Shown: one piece after another, positions 26,264 through 36,402 of the stretch | How positions within the stretch are numbered: the stretch's first letter is position 1 | Layout: each line of letters begins with the position of its first letter | DNA from: Verrucomicrobiales bacterium | GTDB taxonomy: Bacteria; Verrucomicrobiota; Verrucomicrobiia; Verrucomicrobiales; V1-33 | Direction: 5' to 3' | DNA: 42,658 nucleotides | Assembly: GCA_018003315.1 (NCBI GenBank) | Contig: JAGNEJ010000035.1 | Coordinates: forward strand, 1-42,658 | Translations under genes and position numbers: made by a program | The notes under the pieces: generated by a model | Databases searched by the model: none | Seen by the model: the letters and a program-made list of their open reading frames with translations, nothing else | Told to the model about the DNA's origin: nothing

Positions 26264-28486
26264 TCAGGCTTCCGGTTCCGTTTTCAGGCGGGCAGTTGCC
26301 GGGTTCGGTTCAGCGGGTTTGACCGGGGAGGTGGTTGTGCCGCTTGAACGGCGGCGGCGGCGCTTGTCGCCACCGCCTTTTCCCTTGCGGCTGTCGCTCC
26401 CGTAAACGCTGTCCTTTACATAGGGGTCGCCGTAGTAGTAGTAATAGTAGGAAGCACCGCGTCCCACGGGCAGCCGATTCATCACGATGCCAGCCATGCG
26501 GGCGCCGGATTTTTGCAGCAGTTCAATGGCTCGCTGGATGATGCGGCGGGGCGTTTTTCCAAATCGCAGCACCAGACACACCGCGTGAGCGTGGGGTGAG
26601 AGGTAGAGGGTGTCGCTCACGGCATGGATGGGGGCAGTGTCGAGAATGATCCGGTCGTAATCGGCGAGCAGGGAGGCGAGCAGCTTTGGAAGGCGCGGTT
26701 GGGCGAGCAATTCAGAGGGGTTGGGCGGGCGTCTGCCGGAGGGCAGCAGGGACAGTCCTTCCGTTTCCGTGGAGCGGATGGCACCTTTGGGTTCTTCCAA
26801 GCCGCTCAAGACATCCGACAGGCCGCGGTAGTCCTCCTCGGAACGGATGTCACGGCTCAGGAAGCAGGCGCTGAGCATGGGGCGGCGCAGGTCGGCATCA
26901 ATCAGGAGTGTGCGCAATCCCTGACCGGCCAGTGCCGCCGCGAGATTGAGGGAAGTGAACGTCTTCCCTTCGGAAGGTACCGCACTGGTCACCAGCAGGA
27001 GACGCCGGTTGGTCTCCTCGCCCAGCAGGGAAAGGGCCGCTCGCAGGGAGCGGAAGGCTTCGGATTGGGAGCTGCCGGGGTCGGATTCCAGGACCGGCAC
27101 GGAGGATTCCTTCAGGTCCTTGCATTCTGGAATGGCTGCCAGCACCGGCAGTTCAAGTTCGGATTCCGCCTGATCCACCGTGCGGATGGATGCGTCCAGG
27201 CGGTCGATGAGCAGGATGATGCCCACGCCCAGTGCCAGGGCGAGCAGGCCGGCGATGGCCAGCGTTTTCGTGCGGTTGGGACGCACTGGCAGGGGGTTGA
27301 CCAGAGCGGGTTCGATGATCCGGTATTTGTTCTTCAACAGATCCGGGTTGATTTCCATTTCCTTGTTGGAGGTAAGCAGGGAGGCGTAAATGTCGCGGTC
27401 CGCCTTGAGCTGTTCCTTCATCAGATTATACGGAATCAGCTTTTTATTCAGGACGAGCAGCGCCTGGTTTTCATTGGCCAGCATTTTCTCCACTTTGTCG
27501 CGGTTTTCCTGCAGGGTTTTGAACTGCTGCTGAAGGCTGTCTCCCGCCTTGCCCACTGCGGCATGCAGTTTGCCGTCCAAATCCTGGAGCTGGGCATGTG
27601 CCGCGATAAATTTTGGATGTTTGGGACCGTAGCGTTCCTTCAAGGCTTCAAAGGCACTCTGCTGCTTGGTGATTTCCAGGCGCAGCGCCGCCACTTCGGT
27701 AAGGGTGTTCACGCTTTCCAGTTTCAGCATGGCTTCCACATCCTTGGGATCGGTCCGCTGCAGCGTGGCCAGGTCGGTTTCCAGCACCGCAATGCGCACT
27801 TTGGATTCAGCAGCCTGCTTGTCGAGATCCCGAATCCGGGTATTGAGCAGCATCTGGCTTTCTTCCGCAGAAATGGCATCATTTTTCGAGGGCCAGTCGG
27901 CAATCGCCTTTTCCGCTTCGTCCAGTTTGAGCTTGAGCCGCTCCACCTCCTTTTGCAGGGGGGATTTCATCTTGGCAATGTCATCGACTTTGGCCTGCTG
28001 TTTGGCCTTGAGAAATTCGGAAAGCACCGTATCCGCCACCAGCCGGGCTTTTTCAGGGTCGGCATCTTCCGCAACGACATCGATGATCCGCGTGCCGCGG
28101 CGCAGGGAGACCGTCAACTGACTCCGGGTCGTGGCTGCCAGCGAGCTTTCCATCACCGCAGAAACCTTGCCGGTGGGGTCCTTCGAAGCCCATTCCGCCG
28201 TCAATCCGGTGGCTTCCGCGGTCGCCAGCATGACCGCGTTGCCGGTCATGGCCTGCACGTCGGTGTTCAGGGAATCCAAGCCGGTGTAGCGTTCATTCTG
28301 AATGGTGCCAACTTTGTCGCCCAGCGGGTTGATGGTGGAATCCTCCACTTCCAGGGCGGCCCGGGAAGCATAGATGGGAGTCTGCTGGCTGAGCCAGGCC
28401 CAGGCTCCGCCCAATCCGGCGGCCACGAGTAGGACCATGATCCAGGAATTTCGCAGAAAAAGGAACAGATAGCGCTGAAAATGCAT
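26264..28486 (-). CDS. Wzc-like polysaccharide co-polymerase and tyrosine autokinase (740 aa)
   Basis: Inner-membrane chain-length regulator fused to a BY-kinase. TM1 at about 14-33, periplasmic Wzz domain with long coiled coil (about 165-360), the Pro-rich motif NPLPVRPNRTK, TM2 at about 409-427, then the kinase: Walker A SAVPSEGKT (501-509), Walker A' LLIDADLRRP (527-536), Walker B IILDTAP (613-619). The C-terminal tail has six consecutive tyrosines (680-685) plus Y689 and Y695, followed by a Gly/Lys/Arg-rich stretch with five arginines. Phosphorylation cycles of the Tyr cluster control polymer length. It ends an operon with the Wza-like and barrel genes. Confidence 0.95.
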   Translation of the reverse strand: MHFQRYLFLFLRNSWIMVLLVAAGLGGAWAWLSQQTPIYASRAALEVEDSTINPLGDKVGTIQNERYTGLDSLNTDVQAMTGNAVMLATAEATGLTAEWASKDPTGKVSAVMESSLAATTRSQLTVSLRRGTRIIDVVAEDADPEKARLVADTVLSEFLKAKQQAKVDDIAKMKSPLQKEVERLKLKLDEAEKAIADWPSKNDAISAEESQMLLNTRIRDLDKQAAESKVRIAVLETDLATLQRTDPKDVEAMLKLESVNTLTEVAALRLEITKQQSAFEALKERYGPKHPKFIAAHAQLQDLDGKLHAAVGKAGDSLQQQFKTLQENRDKVEKMLANENQALLVLNKKLIPYNLMKEQLKADRDIYASLLTSNKEMEINPDLLKNKYRIIEPALVNPLPVRPNRTKTLAIAGLLALALGVGIILLIDRLDASIRTVDQAESELELPVLAAIPECKDLKESSVPVLESDPGSSQSEAFRSLRAALSLLGEETNRRLLLVTSAVPSEGKTFTSLNLAAALAGQGLRTLLIDADLRRPMLSACFLSRDIRSEEDYRGLSDVLSGLEEPKGAIRSTETEGLSLLPSGRRPPNPSELLAQPRLPKLLASLLADYDRIILDTAPIHAVSDTLYLSPHAHAVCLVLRFGKTPRRIIQRAIELLQKSGARMAGIVMNRLPVGRGASYYYYYYGDPYVKDSVYGSDSRKGKGGGDKRRRRRSSGTTTSPVKPAEPNPATARLKTEPEA

Positions 28487-28534: not shown

Positions 28535-29119
28535 TTACAGGAGGCTTTTGGGAATGCGGATGGTGTCTCCAGGCTGGACATAAACCGCTGGCAGATCCTT
28601 GTCCTTGAGGTTGACTTCGATTTCTTGGTCGCGGCCTGCCCGCTTGATGAAGGCCCTGCCCTCCTTTGCCATCTTGGTGAAGCCGCCGGCATAGATGATC
28701 GCCTGCTGCACGGTCAGCCGCTCTCCCTGCGGCATGACGTAGCGCGCCGGCTTGTTGACCTCGCCGCCGATGGTGTAGAAATGCTTCACGTAATCCACCA
28801 TCGCCACCGTCACGCTGGGCTTGACCAGATAGCCGTCCTTGTAGCGGGTCTCGATGACGCGGGCCGCTTCCGTGCAGGTCATGCCCGCCACGGAAACTTC
28901 CCCGATGAGGTTAAGGGAAATTTTACCCTCCTTGCTCAGCACGGCCTTCGGTGTGGACAGGTCGTCCTCCTGGTAAACGTTGACCATCACGCTGTCTCCG
29001 GGAGCCAGCTTGTGATCCGTTTCCTGTGCCGTCAGGAGGGGAAGCGGAAGGCACCAGAGGAACCAGGCTGCTGCGCAGACCAGGAAATGTCGCAGGGAGG
29101 TTTTGAATGATGATTGCAT
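28535..29119 (-). CDS. Polysaccharide export protein, Wza-like (194 aa)
   Basis: Periplasmic/outer-membrane export protein. A signal peptide (1 to about 32, ending LLTAQE) precedes the Poly_export domain (HKLAPGDSVMVNVYQEDDLSTPKAVLSKEGKISLNLIGEVSVAG) and one SLBB domain (HFYTIGGEVNKPARYVMPQGERLTVQQAIIYAGGF). No lipobox Cys is seen at the cleavage site, unlike E. coli Wza, and the length is about half of Wza, so it may need the adjacent barrel protein for the outer-membrane pore. The frame extends to 29155; the ATG at 29119 begins the signal peptide. It is 48 bases before the Wzc-like gene. Confidence 0.92.
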   Translation of the reverse strand: MQSSFKTSLRHFLVCAAAWFLWCLPLPLLTAQETDHKLAPGDSVMVNVYQEDDLSTPKAVLSKEGKISLNLIGEVSVAGMTCTEAARVIETRYKDGYLVKPSVTVAMVDYVKHFYTIGGEVNKPARYVMPQGERLTVQQAIIYAGGFTKMAKEGRAFIKRAGRDQEIEVNLKDKDLPAVYVQPGDTIRIPKSLL

Positions 29120-29151
29120 GGCGAGTGGGGGGAGGGATCGAAGGTGCGGCG

Positions 29152-30882
29152 TCAAAAAGCGACGCCGAATTGGATGCCGCAGCGGTTGCTAGTGTAGTTC
29201 AGGACGTCCGTCTCGCCCTCATTCCTGCGGTATTCATAATACAGGGAAACCGAAGTGGTGGCGGACGGGGCAAAGCCGAGTCCTACCCGGCCATACCAGA
29301 GGCTCTGGCTTTGATCCACCTGCTGGGCCAGACCGGATACGGTGGATTGGTCTGCGTTGTAGTCATAGCCTGCCATCAGGCTCAAATTCCACCGGTCGCC
29401 GATGCGCTGGTCCACGCCCAACTGCACCGTGGTCCTGTCGGAGGAGGATCCATACACCGAGGCGGAGCCAACCATGAATTTGCTGGCCCGCAGTGTCAGG
29501 GCGGTTCGCTCCCGCATCAGGTAACGGGCATTGAGGGAGAAAACAAAATTTGTTTCCGAGTCGGTGACATCACGTTGGTCGGCGGTAGCAGCCACTTCCG
29601 CCTGCTGTTTGCGATAAGCCGCAAGCTGCGCCTGGTAAGCCTGTTGCTGCGCCCGGTAGGCCGTTTCCAGGGCCTGTTGGTCCTGCGGAGTGGTGCCCTG
29701 GTTCGGAGTGGGGGCCACCGGCGCTACCGGTTCTGGTCCGACTTGTGGACGGCGGTCCTCCGGTGCCTGTGCTTGGTCATATTGGCGGAAATCCAAGCCA
29801 AACTCTCCGGACAAGCTCAGGCGTCCGGTGGCCTCGTAATTGACCGTCATCAGCGCCTGTTGATACGTCTGGTTGGCATTCGTCTCCGCATCCAGTTGCC
29901 CCACTGCCCAGGAAAATCCCAGCGTCGTCCGCCCGCTGAATGCATAGGTGGCCCCCAGCCGGGCCTGGTAGTCGGTGGAGGAATTGAGCGTCTCATAGGT
30001 TTCCGACCGGTAAGACAGACCGGAGGTGAGGTGCGTGCGGCCGCCCAGTTCGTAAGCCAGCGAGGCGGTGAGATTCAGGATGTCGCGGTCCTCCTGCTGG
30101 CGGGCACGGTTGTCTCCGGCGGATGCCGGGTCCATGGCCGTGGCAATGTGGCCGAAGGTGCCGGTGAAGCTGGAATGGAGTCGGCTGAATGCATGGGCGG
30201 CAGTCAGACTGGCATCGTGATTCACCCCGTTCAGGTCGGAGTGGTCCAGATAAAAAAACGCGGTAGCCCGGTAATGCAGGGCCAGGGAGTTTTCGCTCCC
30301 TTCGCCGAGCAGCCAGGAAAGTGAACCGATGGCCTGCAGGGCCACATCGGATTGCTTGTTGCGCAGGGCTTCGTAGGCCCGGTCTTCGGCCTCGGCCATT
30401 TTTTCCGCTTCCTTGGCTGCAGTTTCAGCAGCCTTTTGTGCAGCAGCCTGTGCCTGTTTCTGGGCAGGACTTAACTGTCCACTGGTGACCGTGGCGGTTG
30501 TTGCAGACGCAGGTTCGACCACGCGTTTCGGACGTGATACGTGGTCCGGTGTCCCATAGAGATTGTCGTCAAACATCGCACCCAGACCAAATTCAAGCCG
30601 CAGGGATTTCGGTAAAAAACGGCTTTTGGACAGTTCCTGCTCCATTGCCTTCATCGCCTCCTGCGGAACCTCACTGCTCATTTCCTCCGGCACCGCCAAA
30701 TCCACGCTGCCATCCTTCAAAAACATGCTCCCGTCCGGCAGCAGGTCCCCCGCCTGTCCGGAAATGTCCTCCAGCATCATGGGCAGCGCCGGTTCCACGG
30801 CTTCCTGGGCAGCCCCAGTCCCAGCCCACAGGAAACCCAAAAGGCTGCCTGGCACGAGACGGAGCAGACGGTTTGTTGACAT
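29152..30882 (-). CDS. Outer-membrane beta-barrel protein of the EPS operon (576 aa)
   Basis: Signal peptide at 1-25 (MSTNRLLRLVPGSLLGFLWA), then a long run of alternating hydrophobic strands such as LTASLAYELGGRTHLTSGLSYR, ending in GIQFGVAF with a terminal Phe, the usual outer-membrane assembly signal. Two Ala/Gln-rich helical insertions are present: 139-175 and 396-436. The protein resembles BBP2/EpsL-type barrels that accompany EPS export genes. The frame continues to 31044, but the ATG at 30882 starts the signal peptide. Its stop is 32 bases upstream of the Wza-like start, so it is the first gene of the barrel-wza-wzc operon. Confidence 0.82.
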   Translation of the reverse strand: MSTNRLLRLVPGSLLGFLWAGTGAAQEAVEPALPMMLEDISGQAGDLLPDGSMFLKDGSVDLAVPEEMSSEVPQEAMKAMEQELSKSRFLPKSLRLEFGLGAMFDDNLYGTPDHVSRPKRVVEPASATTATVTSGQLSPAQKQAQAAAQKAAETAAKEAEKMAEAEDRAYEALRNKQSDVALQAIGSLSWLLGEGSENSLALHYRATAFFYLDHSDLNGVNHDASLTAAHAFSRLHSSFTGTFGHIATAMDPASAGDNRARQQEDRDILNLTASLAYELGGRTHLTSGLSYRSETYETLNSSTDYQARLGATYAFSGRTTLGFSWAVGQLDAETNANQTYQQALMTVNYEATGRLSLSGEFGLDFRQYDQAQAPEDRRPQVGPEPVAPVAPTPNQGTTPQDQQALETAYRAQQQAYQAQLAAYRKQQAEVAATADQRDVTDSETNFVFSLNARYLMRERTALTLRASKFMVGSASVYGSSSDRTTVQLGVDQRIGDRWNLSLMAGYDYNADQSTVSGLAQQVDQSQSLWYGRVGLGFAPSATTSVSLYYEYRRNEGETDVLNYTSNRCGIQFGVAF

Positions 30883-31624
30883 GGAATGGGGATGGAAAGG
30901 GAAAATGGGGTGAGGCGAATCTGCGAAGACGTTGCAGAAAATGCCTTGGGGTGGGGAGTGGCAGGCAGTCGATAGGTTCGGGAACTTCAGGAAACCCAAC
31001 GCCGGGGACGCGCGGCCTCGGGAAGGTGACGCCATTATGTTCACGACTCAAGAAGATTTGTGCGATCCAGGTTGGATCAGATGATATCCACCAACGATGG
31101 GGAACCCCGCCCCTGCGCCAAGAGTTGGTGCTGCCTCTCGGCGTCAACGGCAAGATTTCCCTTGGATTAATAAGAAATTTTTTTTGAATTGTTACACGAA
31201 TAATTAAAAAAACCCGGGCAATCTCCGAGTTAATATGAAAATTACGGTTTCCTTATGAGAAAAAGCACACCGATTGTCGAAGGCAACAAGTCACGGCCGT
31301 TTCGGCAGTCGGCTCCACCGGCAATGAACCGCAAGGAAATTCACCCGCAGACCAACAAAGGATCTGGCTCCTGCTGCTGATGGGTGAATGATACTGGAGC
31401 TGACAAAAACGGGATAACCCGAGGCTCCTCGGGGCGGGAAAGCAGAAACAGAAAGGCCGTGCCCTGCTTGATGTGCATTGGCAAAGCATGATGAAAATCA
31501 ACCGCAACGCATTCAAGGAAACCCTGTGGCGAAAGCCAGGAGCCGCTGAATTCCGAAAAAACCTCAAAAAAAAACTTGACCCGATTTTGCCGAACCACTA
31601 ACCTTTCGCCCAAATCAAACCACC
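30883..31624. promoter_or_regulatory. Divergent intergenic region between EPS export operon and secreted-peptide gene
   Basis: 742 bases without a convincing long gene. 31165-31260 is strongly AT-rich (TTTTTTTT and AATTAAAAAAA runs), the likely promoter zone for the minus-strand export operon. A small hairpin CCCGAG-gctc-CTCGGG lies at 31418-31433. The sequence just before 31625 should hold the promoter of the 49-residue peptide. Short frames here look like noise. Confidence 0.5.
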
Positions 31625-31774
31625 ATGAAACAACCCTCGAAAATCATTATCACCCTGATCGGAATCGCCGTTGCCCTCGCGGCAGCAAGTTCCGCCACGG
31701 CCGGAAACCGCCGGGCTCCCAGTACGCCGGTGATCATCACCAGCCCGACGGGAATCATCGTCAGCCACTCCTAG
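31625..31774 (+). CDS. Small secreted peptide (49 aa), unknown
   Basis: ATG at 31625, TAG at 31772-31774. The protein starts MKQPSKIIITLIGIAVALAA, a textbook signal peptide (n-region Lys, hydrophobic core, small residues), with probable cleavage after SSATA. The mature part is only about 23 residues (GNRRAPSTPVIITSPTGIIV then SHS), basic at the front and rich in Ile, Val, Thr and Pro. I know no family. It lies 114 bases before the PEP-CTERM gene in the same direction, in the surface-matrix region. Codon use is normal for the window. It could be a peptide secreted with the matrix; this is inference. Confidence 0.6.
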   Translation: MKQPSKIIITLIGIAVALAAASSATAGNRRAPSTPVIITSPTGIIVSHS

Positions 31775-31888: not shown

Positions 31889-32731
31889 ATGAGAATTTCC
31901 TTTGCAATGATTGCCAGCGCTGCCCTCTGCACGGTCGGGTCGGCGCTTGCCGCTTCCTTTACCACCGGTAATTTCGGTGCCTACAATACTAATACCGGCG
32001 AAGACTTGGTCGGCCAGCAGGGCTGGACGTCGCCGAGCTACACCGATGACCTGTCCATCTCCACCGGAACCGGCGGTTCGTGGAATGGAAATGCCGCATT
32101 CCGGGTGGGAGGGCTTTATGCCCAGCCGCCCTCGATGAATACGGACATCAACCACAGTCATGCGGACAATTTGGCCGGGACGACGTTCTCCGTCAATTTT
32201 TCCATCTTCAACAGTCAGCAAGCGGAGTTCTACAATGGCGACATCGCCAATATCACGGACCCTGCCATCTTCGGCGGTCGTGACAAGTTTGGTTGGTCCA
32301 TTCGGGATGGGTCCAACAACCAGCTCTGGCGCTTGGCATTCGAACCTGCCACGTTGGCGGACCGCATGGAAATTGTGTGGTATGATCCTTCCAACACACG
32401 AAACACCATTCCGCCGGCCCCGGGCTGGGACATCATCAATGGCGAAGCCTACACGCTGAATGTGACCTTTACCCAGAGCGGTGCGAACGCCACGTTCGCA
32501 GCGACGTTGAACTCGCTGAGTTTCGGCGGCACGCTCACCGGCCAAGGGGCAGCCCAGATCGCCGATTTCGGGGCTGACTACGATGTCGGTGGGGGCAATA
32601 CGGCTGCAGCCGGATCAAACTACATGATTTTCAACCAGCTTACGGTGATTCCTGAACCGACGGCGTCTGTGCTAGCCGCTCTGGGAGGATTGATGCTGTT
32701 CGGCCGCCGCCGCGCAGCGAAGCAGGCGTAA
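31889..32731 (+). CDS. PEP-CTERM sorting-signal protein (280 aa)
   Basis: Secreted protein with a signal peptide (1 to about 21, MRISFAMIASAALCTVGSAL) and a C-terminal PEP-CTERM signal: VIPEP near residue 255, a short hydrophobic helix (TASVLAALGGLMLFG) and GRRR. Such proteins are processed by an exosortase and are linked to EPS matrices; no exosortase is in the window. The 230-residue body is Gly/Asn/Thr-rich, consistent with a beta-sandwich. It is paralogous to the N-terminal half of the next gene. Position between EPS export genes and the sugar transferase supports a matrix role. Confidence 0.9.
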   Translation: MRISFAMIASAALCTVGSALAASFTTGNFGAYNTNTGEDLVGQQGWTSPSYTDDLSISTGTGGSWNGNAAFRVGGLYAQPPSMNTDINHSHADNLAGTTFSVNFSIFNSQQAEFYNGDIANITDPAIFGGRDKFGWSIRDGSNNQLWRLAFEPATLADRMEIVWYDPSNTRNTIPPAPGWDIINGEAYTLNVTFTQSGANATFAATLNSLSFGGTLTGQGAAQIADFGADYDVGGGNTAAAGSNYMIFNQLTVIPEPTASVLAALGGLMLFGRRRAAKQA

Positions 32732-32799
32732 TGACCTTGTTTGCCCTCCGCCATCACTGTGGCAGTCAGGCCCGGTGGTCGTGAACAGTGGGAGTTTGT

Positions 32800-34545
32800 A
32801 TGCGCTTTGGATGTGACATTCCAGCCGCAGGCGCAGTGTTTTGCCGCTGGGCTGCTGTGCTGTGGATGTTAACTTCCGCCACGGTGTCCCAGGCGGCACC
32901 ATTGGTGACGGGTGTTTTTCCCAAGCCCTATCTCACCGGGCCAGGTGACGATTTATCCGGCCAGCTTGGCTGGTCGGGGAATGATCCCGCGGATGATCTC
33001 AGTTTCTTTGTCCGCTGGAACGGGTCACTCGCTGGGGCAGTGGGCGGGTATTTTTCCACACCCACCCTGCGCCATGCTGATTTCCAGCACGGCTGCGGAG
33101 AGCCGCTGGCAGGGATCACCTTTCGCGTGGATCTTGCTTTCATCAACAGCGGCGCCTGTGAACCCGGGCAAACTCCAGGAATCGACTGTTTTCCCGGACG
33201 GGATGCTTTTGGCTGGACCTTTCGGGATGCAGGCGGTGCGGAACTGATGCGGGTTGCTTTCGAACCGACTCCCCTCAACCGCATGGAAATCGTCTGGTAT
33301 GACGGGTCCGGCACCCGCATTTCCACGGATAAAGATTTGTTTTACGGGGCCACCTATTCCCTGAGCGTTCACTTTGAGGCAGTGGGTCCGGACATTGTGT
33401 TCAATGCAGCCATCCACAGCGGCTCCACCCTTTCGTTTCAAGGCACCCTTGCGGGCAAAAGCGGCGCAACGCTGGATTCCATTGGTTTTGATTTCGACGT
33501 GAGCGGTGCCACTCCTGGCGAGGCCGGTGACAACATGATGGTTTTTAACCGACTGAGCGTCATCCCCGAACCAGCCGTGCAAGCGCCCTCACCCTCCACA
33601 CTGGTCGTGGCGGAAATCAACTGCCAGCCGCCGCCACCCTCCGTTGCAGAAGCGATCTCGCCGGTTCCCACAGCCAGCGATTTCGAATTCGTGCGGCTGC
33701 TCAACGTCGGATCCACTTGGCTGGACCTCCGCCAGTTGCGCTTCACCGGCGGCATGAGTTTCGACTTTTCCAAGGCGGATGTTCTGCTCTTGCCGCCGGG
33801 TGCCTACGTAACCGTGGTGAAACGCCAACTGGTCTTTGAGCGGCGCTATGGTTCCGCTGGAATTGGAAACATTGCGGGACAGTTTTCCGGAACGTTGAAC
33901 GATGCCGGGCAGACCATCTCCCTCGAATGGGGTGATCCAAATCTTGGTCCGACTTCCATCCTTCATCGCTTTGCCTACGGCGGCGCACCGCTCTGGCCTG
34001 CCGGAGCCGCGGGGTTCGGTCCCACCCTCTTGTTGAAAAACCCGGACCTCGCCCCCGATCCGGCAAATCCGCAACACTGGACTGCCAGCGCGCATCCAGG
34101 AGGGCAGCCCGGAGGAATGCCTCATCCTTTGGATTATGACGGCTGGAGGGCGCTGTGTTTTTCGATCGCAGAGACTCAAAACGACTTGATTTCCGGGCGA
34201 TCCGCGGACCCCGACGGAGACGGAATGACCAACGAACTGGAATGCATCCTCGGATCCATTCCGCGCCTCTGGGACGATGCCACACAGATCGTCAGTCCCG
34301 GCATGTTCCAGCAGTTGGGAGAAACATTTCTTGCTCTGGATTACCGACTCCAGCCGGGCATCACCGGATTGACTCTGGTCCCGGAAGTATCCACGGATTT
34401 GACGAATTGGAATCACGAGCCTGCCGATCTCGTCATCCTGTCGGGACCACTCAGCCAGCCCAATGGCACCATCTCGTGGAAAGTCAGAGATGCGATACCT
34501 CACCAGACGAGTCACCGGCGGTTTCTCCGGGCTTCCGTCCAGTAG
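32800..34545 (+). CDS. PEP-CTERM-derived multidomain secreted protein, anchor lost (581 aa)
   Basis: Start ATG at 32800 is preceded by GGGAG with a 5-base spacing; a GTG at 32788 is also open. Residues about 30-255 are a paralogue of the preceding PEP-CTERM protein (shared GRDxFGWxxRD, AFEP, RMEIVWYD, GEAxxNxMxxFNxLxVIPEP). The VIPEP motif is kept at about 254-258 but is not followed by a helix and Arg box. Instead come a lamin-tail-like domain (about 266-420, starting VVAEINCQPP), a Ca-binding-like segment (SADPDGDGMTNELE), and a C-terminal module (GLTLVPEVSTDLTNW). Function unknown; a non-anchored matrix protein is plausible. Confidence 0.82.
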   Translation: MRFGCDIPAAGAVFCRWAAVLWMLTSATVSQAAPLVTGVFPKPYLTGPGDDLSGQLGWSGNDPADDLSFFVRWNGSLAGAVGGYFSTPTLRHADFQHGCGEPLAGITFRVDLAFINSGACEPGQTPGIDCFPGRDAFGWTFRDAGGAELMRVAFEPTPLNRMEIVWYDGSGTRISTDKDLFYGATYSLSVHFEAVGPDIVFNAAIHSGSTLSFQGTLAGKSGATLDSIGFDFDVSGATPGEAGDNMMVFNRLSVIPEPAVQAPSPSTLVVAEINCQPPPPSVAEAISPVPTASDFEFVRLLNVGSTWLDLRQLRFTGGMSFDFSKADVLLLPPGAYVTVVKRQLVFERRYGSAGIGNIAGQFSGTLNDAGQTISLEWGDPNLGPTSILHRFAYGGAPLWPAGAAGFGPTLLLKNPDLAPDPANPQHWTASAHPGGQPGGMPHPLDYDGWRALCFSIAETQNDLISGRSADPDGDGMTNELECILGSIPRLWDDATQIVSPGMFQQLGETFLALDYRLQPGITGLTLVPEVSTDLTNWNHEPADLVILSGPLSQPNGTISWKVRDAIPHQTSHRRFLRASVQ

Positions 34546-34911
34546 GTGGTGCAGATGCCCTGAAGAAACCGCCACCCTCCGGGAAGCGATGCTGAGCGGA
34601 ATCGAAAACTTTTTGAAAAAAGCATGTAACCTTTTGCAGAAAATGAGGTAGTCATACACGAGCGGAATTGCTTTCCGATTTTGTCCGCTTTAACCCAAAC
34701 CCCCCCAGATTTCGCCGCGACCAGAAGCTGTTCCGTCGAACCGACTACCCAATCATTCCGCGGCGAAGCAAAGAACTTGCTGAAACAGGATCAAGTTCGG
34801 GAGGAAAATTCTCCCGACTAGCCTCGAATTTCGGCAGGAACCTTTGTCCCGAGGTTTCTGATTTGGCAACGCAGGACTCGACGAAAGTTTTTGGCATTGC
34901 GCCATACCAAA
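34546..34911. promoter_or_regulatory. Intergenic region upstream of the initiating sugar transferase
   Basis: 366 bases with no gene. A perfect CGGGAG-gaaaatt-CTCCCG hairpin is at 34798-34816 but lacks a T run. AT-rich patches near 34600-34680 may carry the promoter of the sugar transferase; I cannot fix -35/-10 boxes. Confidence 0.4.
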
Positions 34912-36402
34912 ATGATCACCGAAGATCCAAAGCCAACCGAACGTGAGCCCCCACAGCAGGGGACTCCATCGTTTCGTGCGGCGCTGGAACTGCCTTCGGA
35001 GGAAACCACCGGTCAACCGATTCGGCGGCGCCGACGACTCTCCACGGGTTATTTTTCTGTCGTTTTCGTTCTGATGGACCTGGTCCTTTGGCTCGGCATG
35101 TTCGGACTCATCTACTGGATCAAAAGCTTGACCCATCAGGTGTCCCACCTTGAGCACCTTTCGGTGGTGGGGATCCCCCTCGGTGTTTCGCTGGTGGCGG
35201 CCTGGCTGGTTGGGGGGTATGACCGGGAATCGGATTTTTTCAGCCTGCGATTTGCATCGGAATTTGTCCTCGGCGGCATTCTGGCTGCGTTCGCAGGCGC
35301 AGGGCTGTCTGCCCTGGTTGGAACCTATGGCAGTTCCATGCAGACCAGCCGGATGCTGCTCATCCTCGCACCTGTGGGCTATACGTTTTCCGCCCTTTAC
35401 CTTCGACGATCGCTGGAGCCGGTGTTTGGACGAACCGCAACCACGGCACGACGCATTTTAGTGCTGGGAACTCCCGAAGACGGAGCCGCAATCCTAACCG
35501 CCATGGCGATTGTCGGCAAGGCTGCGAACGTCAGAGTGGTCGCATTGAACAATGGCGCTACGGAGGCGTCTCTGCGGAAGGCCCTGGATGCCGAAACGGC
35601 CGTTCAGAAAACCGAACATGCCTTGGACAGCATCGTTCTGGGCCGTGAAGTCCGTCAGCTTGATCCAGGTCTTTCGGAGATGCTGGTGGTCCTGCACTCC
35701 AATGCGGTTCCGGTCTTTGTCTGGGGCGCTTTCTGGCAGCAGCGTCTGCGCATGCTGGACGTGATGGACCCTTCCCCGTGCTGGTTGTTTGACCGCGACT
35801 TCCGGCTCGCCCGTTTTTCTGTGTATTCCCACGTCAAACGCCTTGCGGACGTTCTCCTCGCTTCCATTGGGCTATTGGCAACCTCGCCGCTGTTGCTGCT
35901 CATCTGGCTGGCCATCCGGGTCACCAGTCCAGGCAAAGGCGTCTTTCAACAGGATCGGTATGGGTACCGCGGGTGGCCGTTTACGATTTACAAGTTTCGT
36001 ACCATGAAGATGGATTCGGAAAAGGCGGGGACCACCACCGCGAGTGCCGATCCGCGCATCACCCGCATCGGAAAATTTCTCCGAAAATCCCGGCTCGATG
36101 AACTGCCCCAGCTCTGGAATGTGCTCAAAGGAGAAATGAGTCTGGTGGGGCCGCGTCCGGAATGGAGCGAATGCATCAAAGACTACGAAAATGAGGTTCC
36201 CTACTACCATCTCCGCCACCTTGTGAAGCCAGGAATCACCGGCTGGGCTCAGGTCAATTACCCCTACGGTCAGGACGTAGAGGACGCCCGGAACAAGCTC
36301 GCTTTCGACCTCTATTATGTAAAAAATGCCAGCATGATTCTGGATTGCAGCATCATCTTGAAAACCCTCCACGTCATCGTCGGCCGGGTGGGAGGACGGT
36401 GA
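34912..36402 (+). CDS. Polyprenyl glycosylphosphotransferase, PEP-CTERM/EpsB-like (496 aa)
   Basis: Initiating enzyme that transfers a sugar-1-phosphate to undecaprenyl phosphate. N-terminal half: transmembrane helices (about 46-70, 85-105, 120-145, 150-170) and a CoA-binding-like domain ([19 protein letters not shown]). C-terminal sugar transferase domain: [61 protein letters not shown], and [29 protein letters not shown]. The last segment resembles the PEP-CTERM-associated sugar transferase subgroup (TIGR03013) as I remember it. The ATG at 34912 is preferred over a TTG at 34891. It completes the EPS system together with the region 1 glycosyltransferases. Confidence 0.93.

Follow-up and report, generated by a model that had tools for sequence, protein, structure and literature searches.

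Two adjacent genes on the forward strand of a 42,658-nucleotide contig from a Verrucomicrobiales bacterium (contig C89, hereafter the window) encode the proteins P1 and P2, which share a predicted lectin-like front domain (N-domain) and differ in their C-termini. We favor, with a probability of roughly 0.55, the reading that they form an exopolysaccharide (EPS)-associated pair using two C-terminal routes, P2 being the product of a gene fusion that retains its PEP motif as a vestige. As suggested by its motif and the gene content of the genome, P1 would be exported by Sec and then processed by exosortase. P2 would descend from a PEP-CTERM protein to which, directly behind the PEP motif, the rear part of a protein with a lamin-tail domain (LTD) became fused. 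This fusion would have swapped the helix and Arg box for an LTD, a TSP3-like repeat and a C-terminal Ig-like domain (CTD), the stock rear end in this genome. P2 would also be exported by Sec, its fate, anchored or secreted, presumably being set by the CTD. Each protein would thereby bring a lectin-like domain to the exopolysaccharide or its vicinity, and the two may act jointly in the EPS matrix. With the same domain, two tails and one locus, P1 and P2 make a matched pair for asking where exosortase substrates go.

Shared front domain and different tails of P1 and P2

P1 (280 aa; 31889–32731, + strand) has, by sequence and hydropathy, the layout of a PEP-CTERM substrate, in which a signal peptide and, here, a predicted ConA-like domain are followed by a C-terminal VIPEP motif, a hydrophobic helix and a basic cluster. 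After VIPEP it reads TASVLAALGGLMLFGRRRAAKQA, which comprises the hydrophobic stretch and the Arg box (RRR), and this tail layout is common to its relatives. Its place in an EPS locus, together with the signal peptide, PEP motif, hydrophobic stretch and Arg box, likens P1 to the PEP-CTERM/exosortase (EpsH) system, and exosortases are also encoded in the source genome, a 5.09-Mb draft in 155 contigs with two exosortase genes and at least 11 PEP-CTERM genes (TIGR02595, E ≤ 1e-3). Despite its PEP, helix and Arg-box layout, P1 is absent from the 11 TIGR02595 hits at this threshold, and its whole-protein match to the NCBIfam PEP-CTERM family NF038129 is weak (21.7 bits, cut-off 65). Upstream of P1 lies a 49-aa ORF (31625–31774, +) with a signal-peptide-like start, MKQPSKIIITLIGIAVALAAASSATAG; none of the retrieved loci contains a relative of this ORF.

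P2 (581 aa; 32800–34545, +) is readable from a GTG at 32788, the ATG at 32800 being the likelier start, and a GGGAG is situated at 32790–32794. BLASTP aligned P1 and P2 over 241 aa with 42% identity (E 3e-49), and the alignment stops exactly at VIPEP, which bears out the claim of the earlier note that P2 repeats the domain of P1 through this motif. In P2, the N-domain (32893–33561, +) runs up to a stranded VIPEP (33559–33573, +), behind which lies the fusion junction, and the protein reads on as AVQAPSPSTLVVAEIN. In place of the hydrophobic stretch and RRR of P1, P2 carries AVQAPSPSTLVVAEI and then ~320 residues that contain no helix of this kind and no Arg box. P2 thus departs from the PEP-CTERM/exosortase system in that the motif is kept while another C-terminal module replaces the helix and Arg box. 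The motif is, as had been proposed, buried and disabled, with LTD, TSP3-like repeat and CTD following it. Codon-position GC looks gene-like through both halves of P2, so a frame artefact seems an unlikely origin of the fusion.

The structure prediction that had been suggested was run for both halves. The C-half of P2 was modelled with a pLDDT of 92. Its LTD (approximate limits 33595–34020, +; family alignment A7) scores only 18.3 bits against PF00932, under the gathering cut-off of 34.3, and P2 is therefore called LTD-like by fold and relatives: residues ~10–144 of the modelled C-half match lamin A/C, B1 and B2 with Z of 7.3–8.0 over ~98–112 aligned residues, in line with the lamin-tail Ig-type fold, and the region is also present in close sequence relatives. 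The TSP3-like repeat DPDGDGMTNELE (34207–34245, +; alignment A1) is of the Ca-binding type and weakly matches PF18884 (TSP3_bac). The CTD (34285–34542, +), which ends in RRFLRASVQ, has an Ig-like model (Z 6–7), a common arrangement. A PDB sequence search with the C-half returned teneurin hits, which were disregarded as marginal (E 0.03). Within the family of the source organism, residues 264–585 of P2 have dozens of matching proteins per genome, and the last ~320 residues are 41% identical to proteins of the sister species (G008). The same rear end is found in Verrucomicrobiota LTD proteins, a part of which also carry CotH and chitobiase C-terminal modules; unlike P2, these LTD proteins are mostly 900–2000 aa long and lack a ConA-like front.

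The N-domain model, built with AlphaFold2 from the P2 and P1 sequences, is all-beta with a pLDDT of only 62, and at this confidence it presents the jelly-roll beta-sandwich of the ConA-like lectin/glucanase superfamily (Foldseek E about 1e-5, TM 0.4–0.47). Matching folds include those of the sialidase BT_1020 and PL7 alginate lyases as well as of galectins and legume lectins (VIA Z 11–12.8). While the predicted fold is that of ConA-like lectins and PL7 alginate lyases, no sequence similarity to solved structures is detectable, and a PDB sequence search with the N-domain found nothing. From fold and context, the N-domain probably binds glycans. Within the order, 77 of 387 genomes have a match to it (E ≤ 1e-3), mostly in PEP-CTERM proteins of 260–350 aa. 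The true count is lower, because the weakest of these matches lie chiefly in the C-terminal region that includes the PEP tail. A search of the set genome_contigs for related loci with the N-domain gave no relatives.

P1 and P2 are flanked by EPS genes on both sides. On the − strand lie an outer-membrane beta-barrel protein (29152–31044; PF13505), a Wza-type polysaccharide export protein (28535–29155; PF02563 and SLBB, TIGR03027 below cut-off) and a chain-length determinant/tyrosine autokinase (BY-kinase; 26264–28486; TIGR01007 above cut-off, GNVR). On the + strand follows a polyprenyl glycosylphosphotransferase, the first EPS sugar transferase (34891–36402; TIGR03025 above cut-off, PF02397). 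The same neighbourhood recurs outside the window: in 14 loci of other genomes, which belong to three families, N-domain genes likewise lie close to genes for a BY-kinase, Wza, barrel or sugar transferase. The BY-kinases of the window and of five other EPS loci (L105, L106, L107, L110, L114) have very Tyr-rich C-termini (YYGYYGNYYYG...) that are conserved between loci; such C-termini are typical of autophosphorylating tyrosine kinases. In both loci of family f3, a conserved secreted protein of ~180 aa adjoins the N-domain fusion gene (L107:5119-5661, L106:49-591).

The C-terminal tail of P2 and its relatives

Within 80 loci from named genomes, 72 of the 73 complete LTD+TSP3+CTD matches stop 0–6 residues before the stop codon. 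A TSP3+CTD profile gave 89 matches in the source genome (E ≤ 0.01), and in all 16 inspected matches (+ strand loci) the protein ends 0–28 residues past the aligned part. Across the phylum, the TSP3+CTD tail is present in 105 of 240 genomes, with copy numbers per genome that are lower bounds (at most 19 candidates scored in each). The architectures upstream of it vary and include CotH/LTD proteins, an alpha-amylase-like protein and Calx-beta proteins; the nearest named matches of the LTD cassette come almost all from Verrucomicrobiales, Akkermansiaceae and Chthoniobacteraceae. LTD, TSP3 and CTD are thus a stock C-terminus rather than a module picked up incidentally. A separate family of secreted proteins (480–620 aa; L121, L126, L140, L123, L115), located next to or near the EPS-type PEP-CTERM gene in several genomes, combines a signal peptide and a 'QTYDG'-type N-terminus with the TSP3+CTD tail.

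Since its new tail ends about 90 proteins of the genome, P2 was probably re-addressed and not set free. The earlier note had described P2 as freely secreted, which finds no support in view of these matches and of the extreme C-terminal position of the tail. Possibly the tail is a different signal, for sorting, anchoring or secretion, that would not leave P2 free. The earlier proposal was to be refuted if P2 had some other kind of sorting signal at its C-terminus, and the CTD, with its putative sorting role, is a serious candidate for one. More tentatively, TSP3 plus the Ig-like CTD might constitute a general Verrucomicrobiota sorting or secretion signal, with up to ~90 copies per genome and parallel to PEP-CTERM/exosortase, for which P1 and P2 would be a natural tail-swap. 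If the CTD is read as such a signal, P1 and P2 send one lectin-like domain by both routes.

It seems rather unlikely that duplication and domain capture simply disabled sorting, making P2 a freely secreted matrix protein with a merely structural or binding CTD. This would agree with the missing helix and Arg box after the PEP motif and with the CTD matching no known sorting family; LTD and Ig-like folds are common adhesion and binding modules, and the CTD might serve as a structural cap or in binding instead of as a signal. However, the CTD occupies the extreme C-terminus in all but one of the complete relatives, behind unrelated upstream architectures. This placement is typical of C-terminal signals; a binding domain of the usual sort should also turn up elsewhere in proteins.

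In Pfam and NCBIfam, no model covers the CTD and no known sorting family is among the matches. As a C-terminal beta-sandwich on many unrelated secreted proteins, the tail of P2 is like the T9SS CTD (Por_Secre_tail), a matter of resemblance alone; it differs in that the CTD has no NCBIfam match. Por_Secre_tail (TIGR04183) was absent from the source genome, whereas two controls were detected, and P2 and the tails were also without a match. By sequence, the tail family was not assigned to the T9SS CTD. The SprA translocon gave no hit in the source genome, with its control likewise silent, and the absence of the T9SS CTD fold among the structural matches listed for the CTD excludes nothing. No cognate machinery for the CTD was found in the analysis; secretins are present in the source genome, and the tail might therefore use a route that depends on them (type II or pilus). 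NCBIfam NF042425, a family of the Amuc_1099 pilus-like system, weakly matches 3 of the 12 tails in alignment A1 (best E 1.8e-4), a similarity that may be fortuitous or may point towards the machinery.

PEP-CTERM and LTD are known, and so are pairs of homologues of which one has a PEP-CTERM end and the other lacks it; PEP-CTERM regions in atypical places may be non-functional (Haft et al. 2006, PMC1569441). In Akkermansia, proteomics has detected PEP-CTERM proteins (PMC4960237). What we add is a variant and a lead to a domain family that awaits characterisation. A literature search, mostly of titles and abstracts, did not find a description of the CTD, which is weak evidence of absence. The CTD family is large, occurs in Verrucomicrobiota including Akkermansiaceae, lacks a Pfam or NCBIfam model and may represent a second route of protein sorting; little is known about surface export in this phylum.

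Origin of the fusion and changes of tail

In a tree of 38 N-domains, P2, P1 and a third, unlinked paralogue on contig C58 (265 aa, VVPEP + helix + RRR) form one group (99/96), within which P1 and the C58 copy are sisters (99/95) and P2 stands outside that pair. The closest paralogue of P1 is the unlinked C58 copy and not P2, which argues against a simple P1-to-P2 tandem duplication. The idea of domain capture after duplication is therefore supported for the replacement of an exosortase-type C-terminus and not for the tandem duplication. Because VIPEP is kept, the change in P2 likely ran from the PEP tail to the other end.

The tree calls for three or more changes between ends with and without the PEP tail (bootstrap range 3–4). 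G012 encodes a 328-aa protein of N-domain, TSP3 and CTD, in which VMPMPV at the expected PEP place is possibly a vestige, and G224 a protein joining the N-domain to Calx-beta, TSP3 and CTD, whose gene is divergent from a PEP copy; in both genomes the non-PEP copy adjoins a PEP copy. G217 and G035 combine the N-domain with Calx-beta-like, cadherin-like, TSP3 and CTD modules, and in G035 a PEP-CTERM protein whose N-domain was missed by the profile lies two genes away. In G382, the N-domain precedes a CTD-like end, judged by eye, without TSP3. With a shared ConA-like front domain, an EPS-export locus and a pairing that recurs elsewhere, the suggestion that P2 is a matrix partner of P1 is plausible.

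Neighbour statistics, which are indicative because the pattern was noticed before counting, gave a tail-bearing gene as immediate neighbour of an N-domain PEP gene in 9 of 76 cases versus 5 of 233 other genes (Fisher P 0.0015; same loci, not independent, with the window itself and related loci included). By the same indicative kind of count, 4 of about 14 inspected PEP-CTERM genes in the source genome directly precede a tail gene (the window; C58, L108; C3, L236; C81, L239), about 0.3 cases being expected from 89 tail genes among an estimated 4300 or so genes (P 1.6e-4, and P 0.025 without the two N-domain cases). A PEP gene followed by an LTD/tail gene would offer a route to P2 through deletion between both.

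Such a deletion, between a PEP-CTERM copy and a downstream LTD gene, might also have left P2 as a recent or decaying fusion without function, which we regard as improbable. The raw material is at hand, as PEP-CTERM genes directly before LTD/tail genes on C3 and C81 illustrate, and the combination of N-domain and LTD was seen only in the source genome; the sister species gave no N-domain hit at all. Yet the 581-aa frame is intact, with signal peptide, Shine-Dalgarno sequence and coding-like GC by codon position, and it has been kept even though identity to P1 is only 42%. Furthermore, the C-half is well-formed in prediction, and independent analogues exist in other families. An assembly chimera of two loci, to which the 155-contig draft and the unique architecture might point, is very improbable, given that the junction is in frame and falls precisely behind the PEP motif, and that both flanks carry EPS-locus genes in a combination also present in G035.

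The further fusions with an internal PEP motif that the earlier note proposed to search for were not encountered: none of the 80 named-genome LTD loci has an internal PEP-CTERM front, three PEP strings in them being within the LTD or incidental. Elsewhere in the source genome, contig C117 carries a tandem pair of PEP-CTERM genes (L237:5648-7438). One LTD protein is truncated where contig C36 ends (L235; ...MVLMRPETNPDPALPE) and appears to run on at the start of C72 (L055), and these two contigs therefore probably adjoin.
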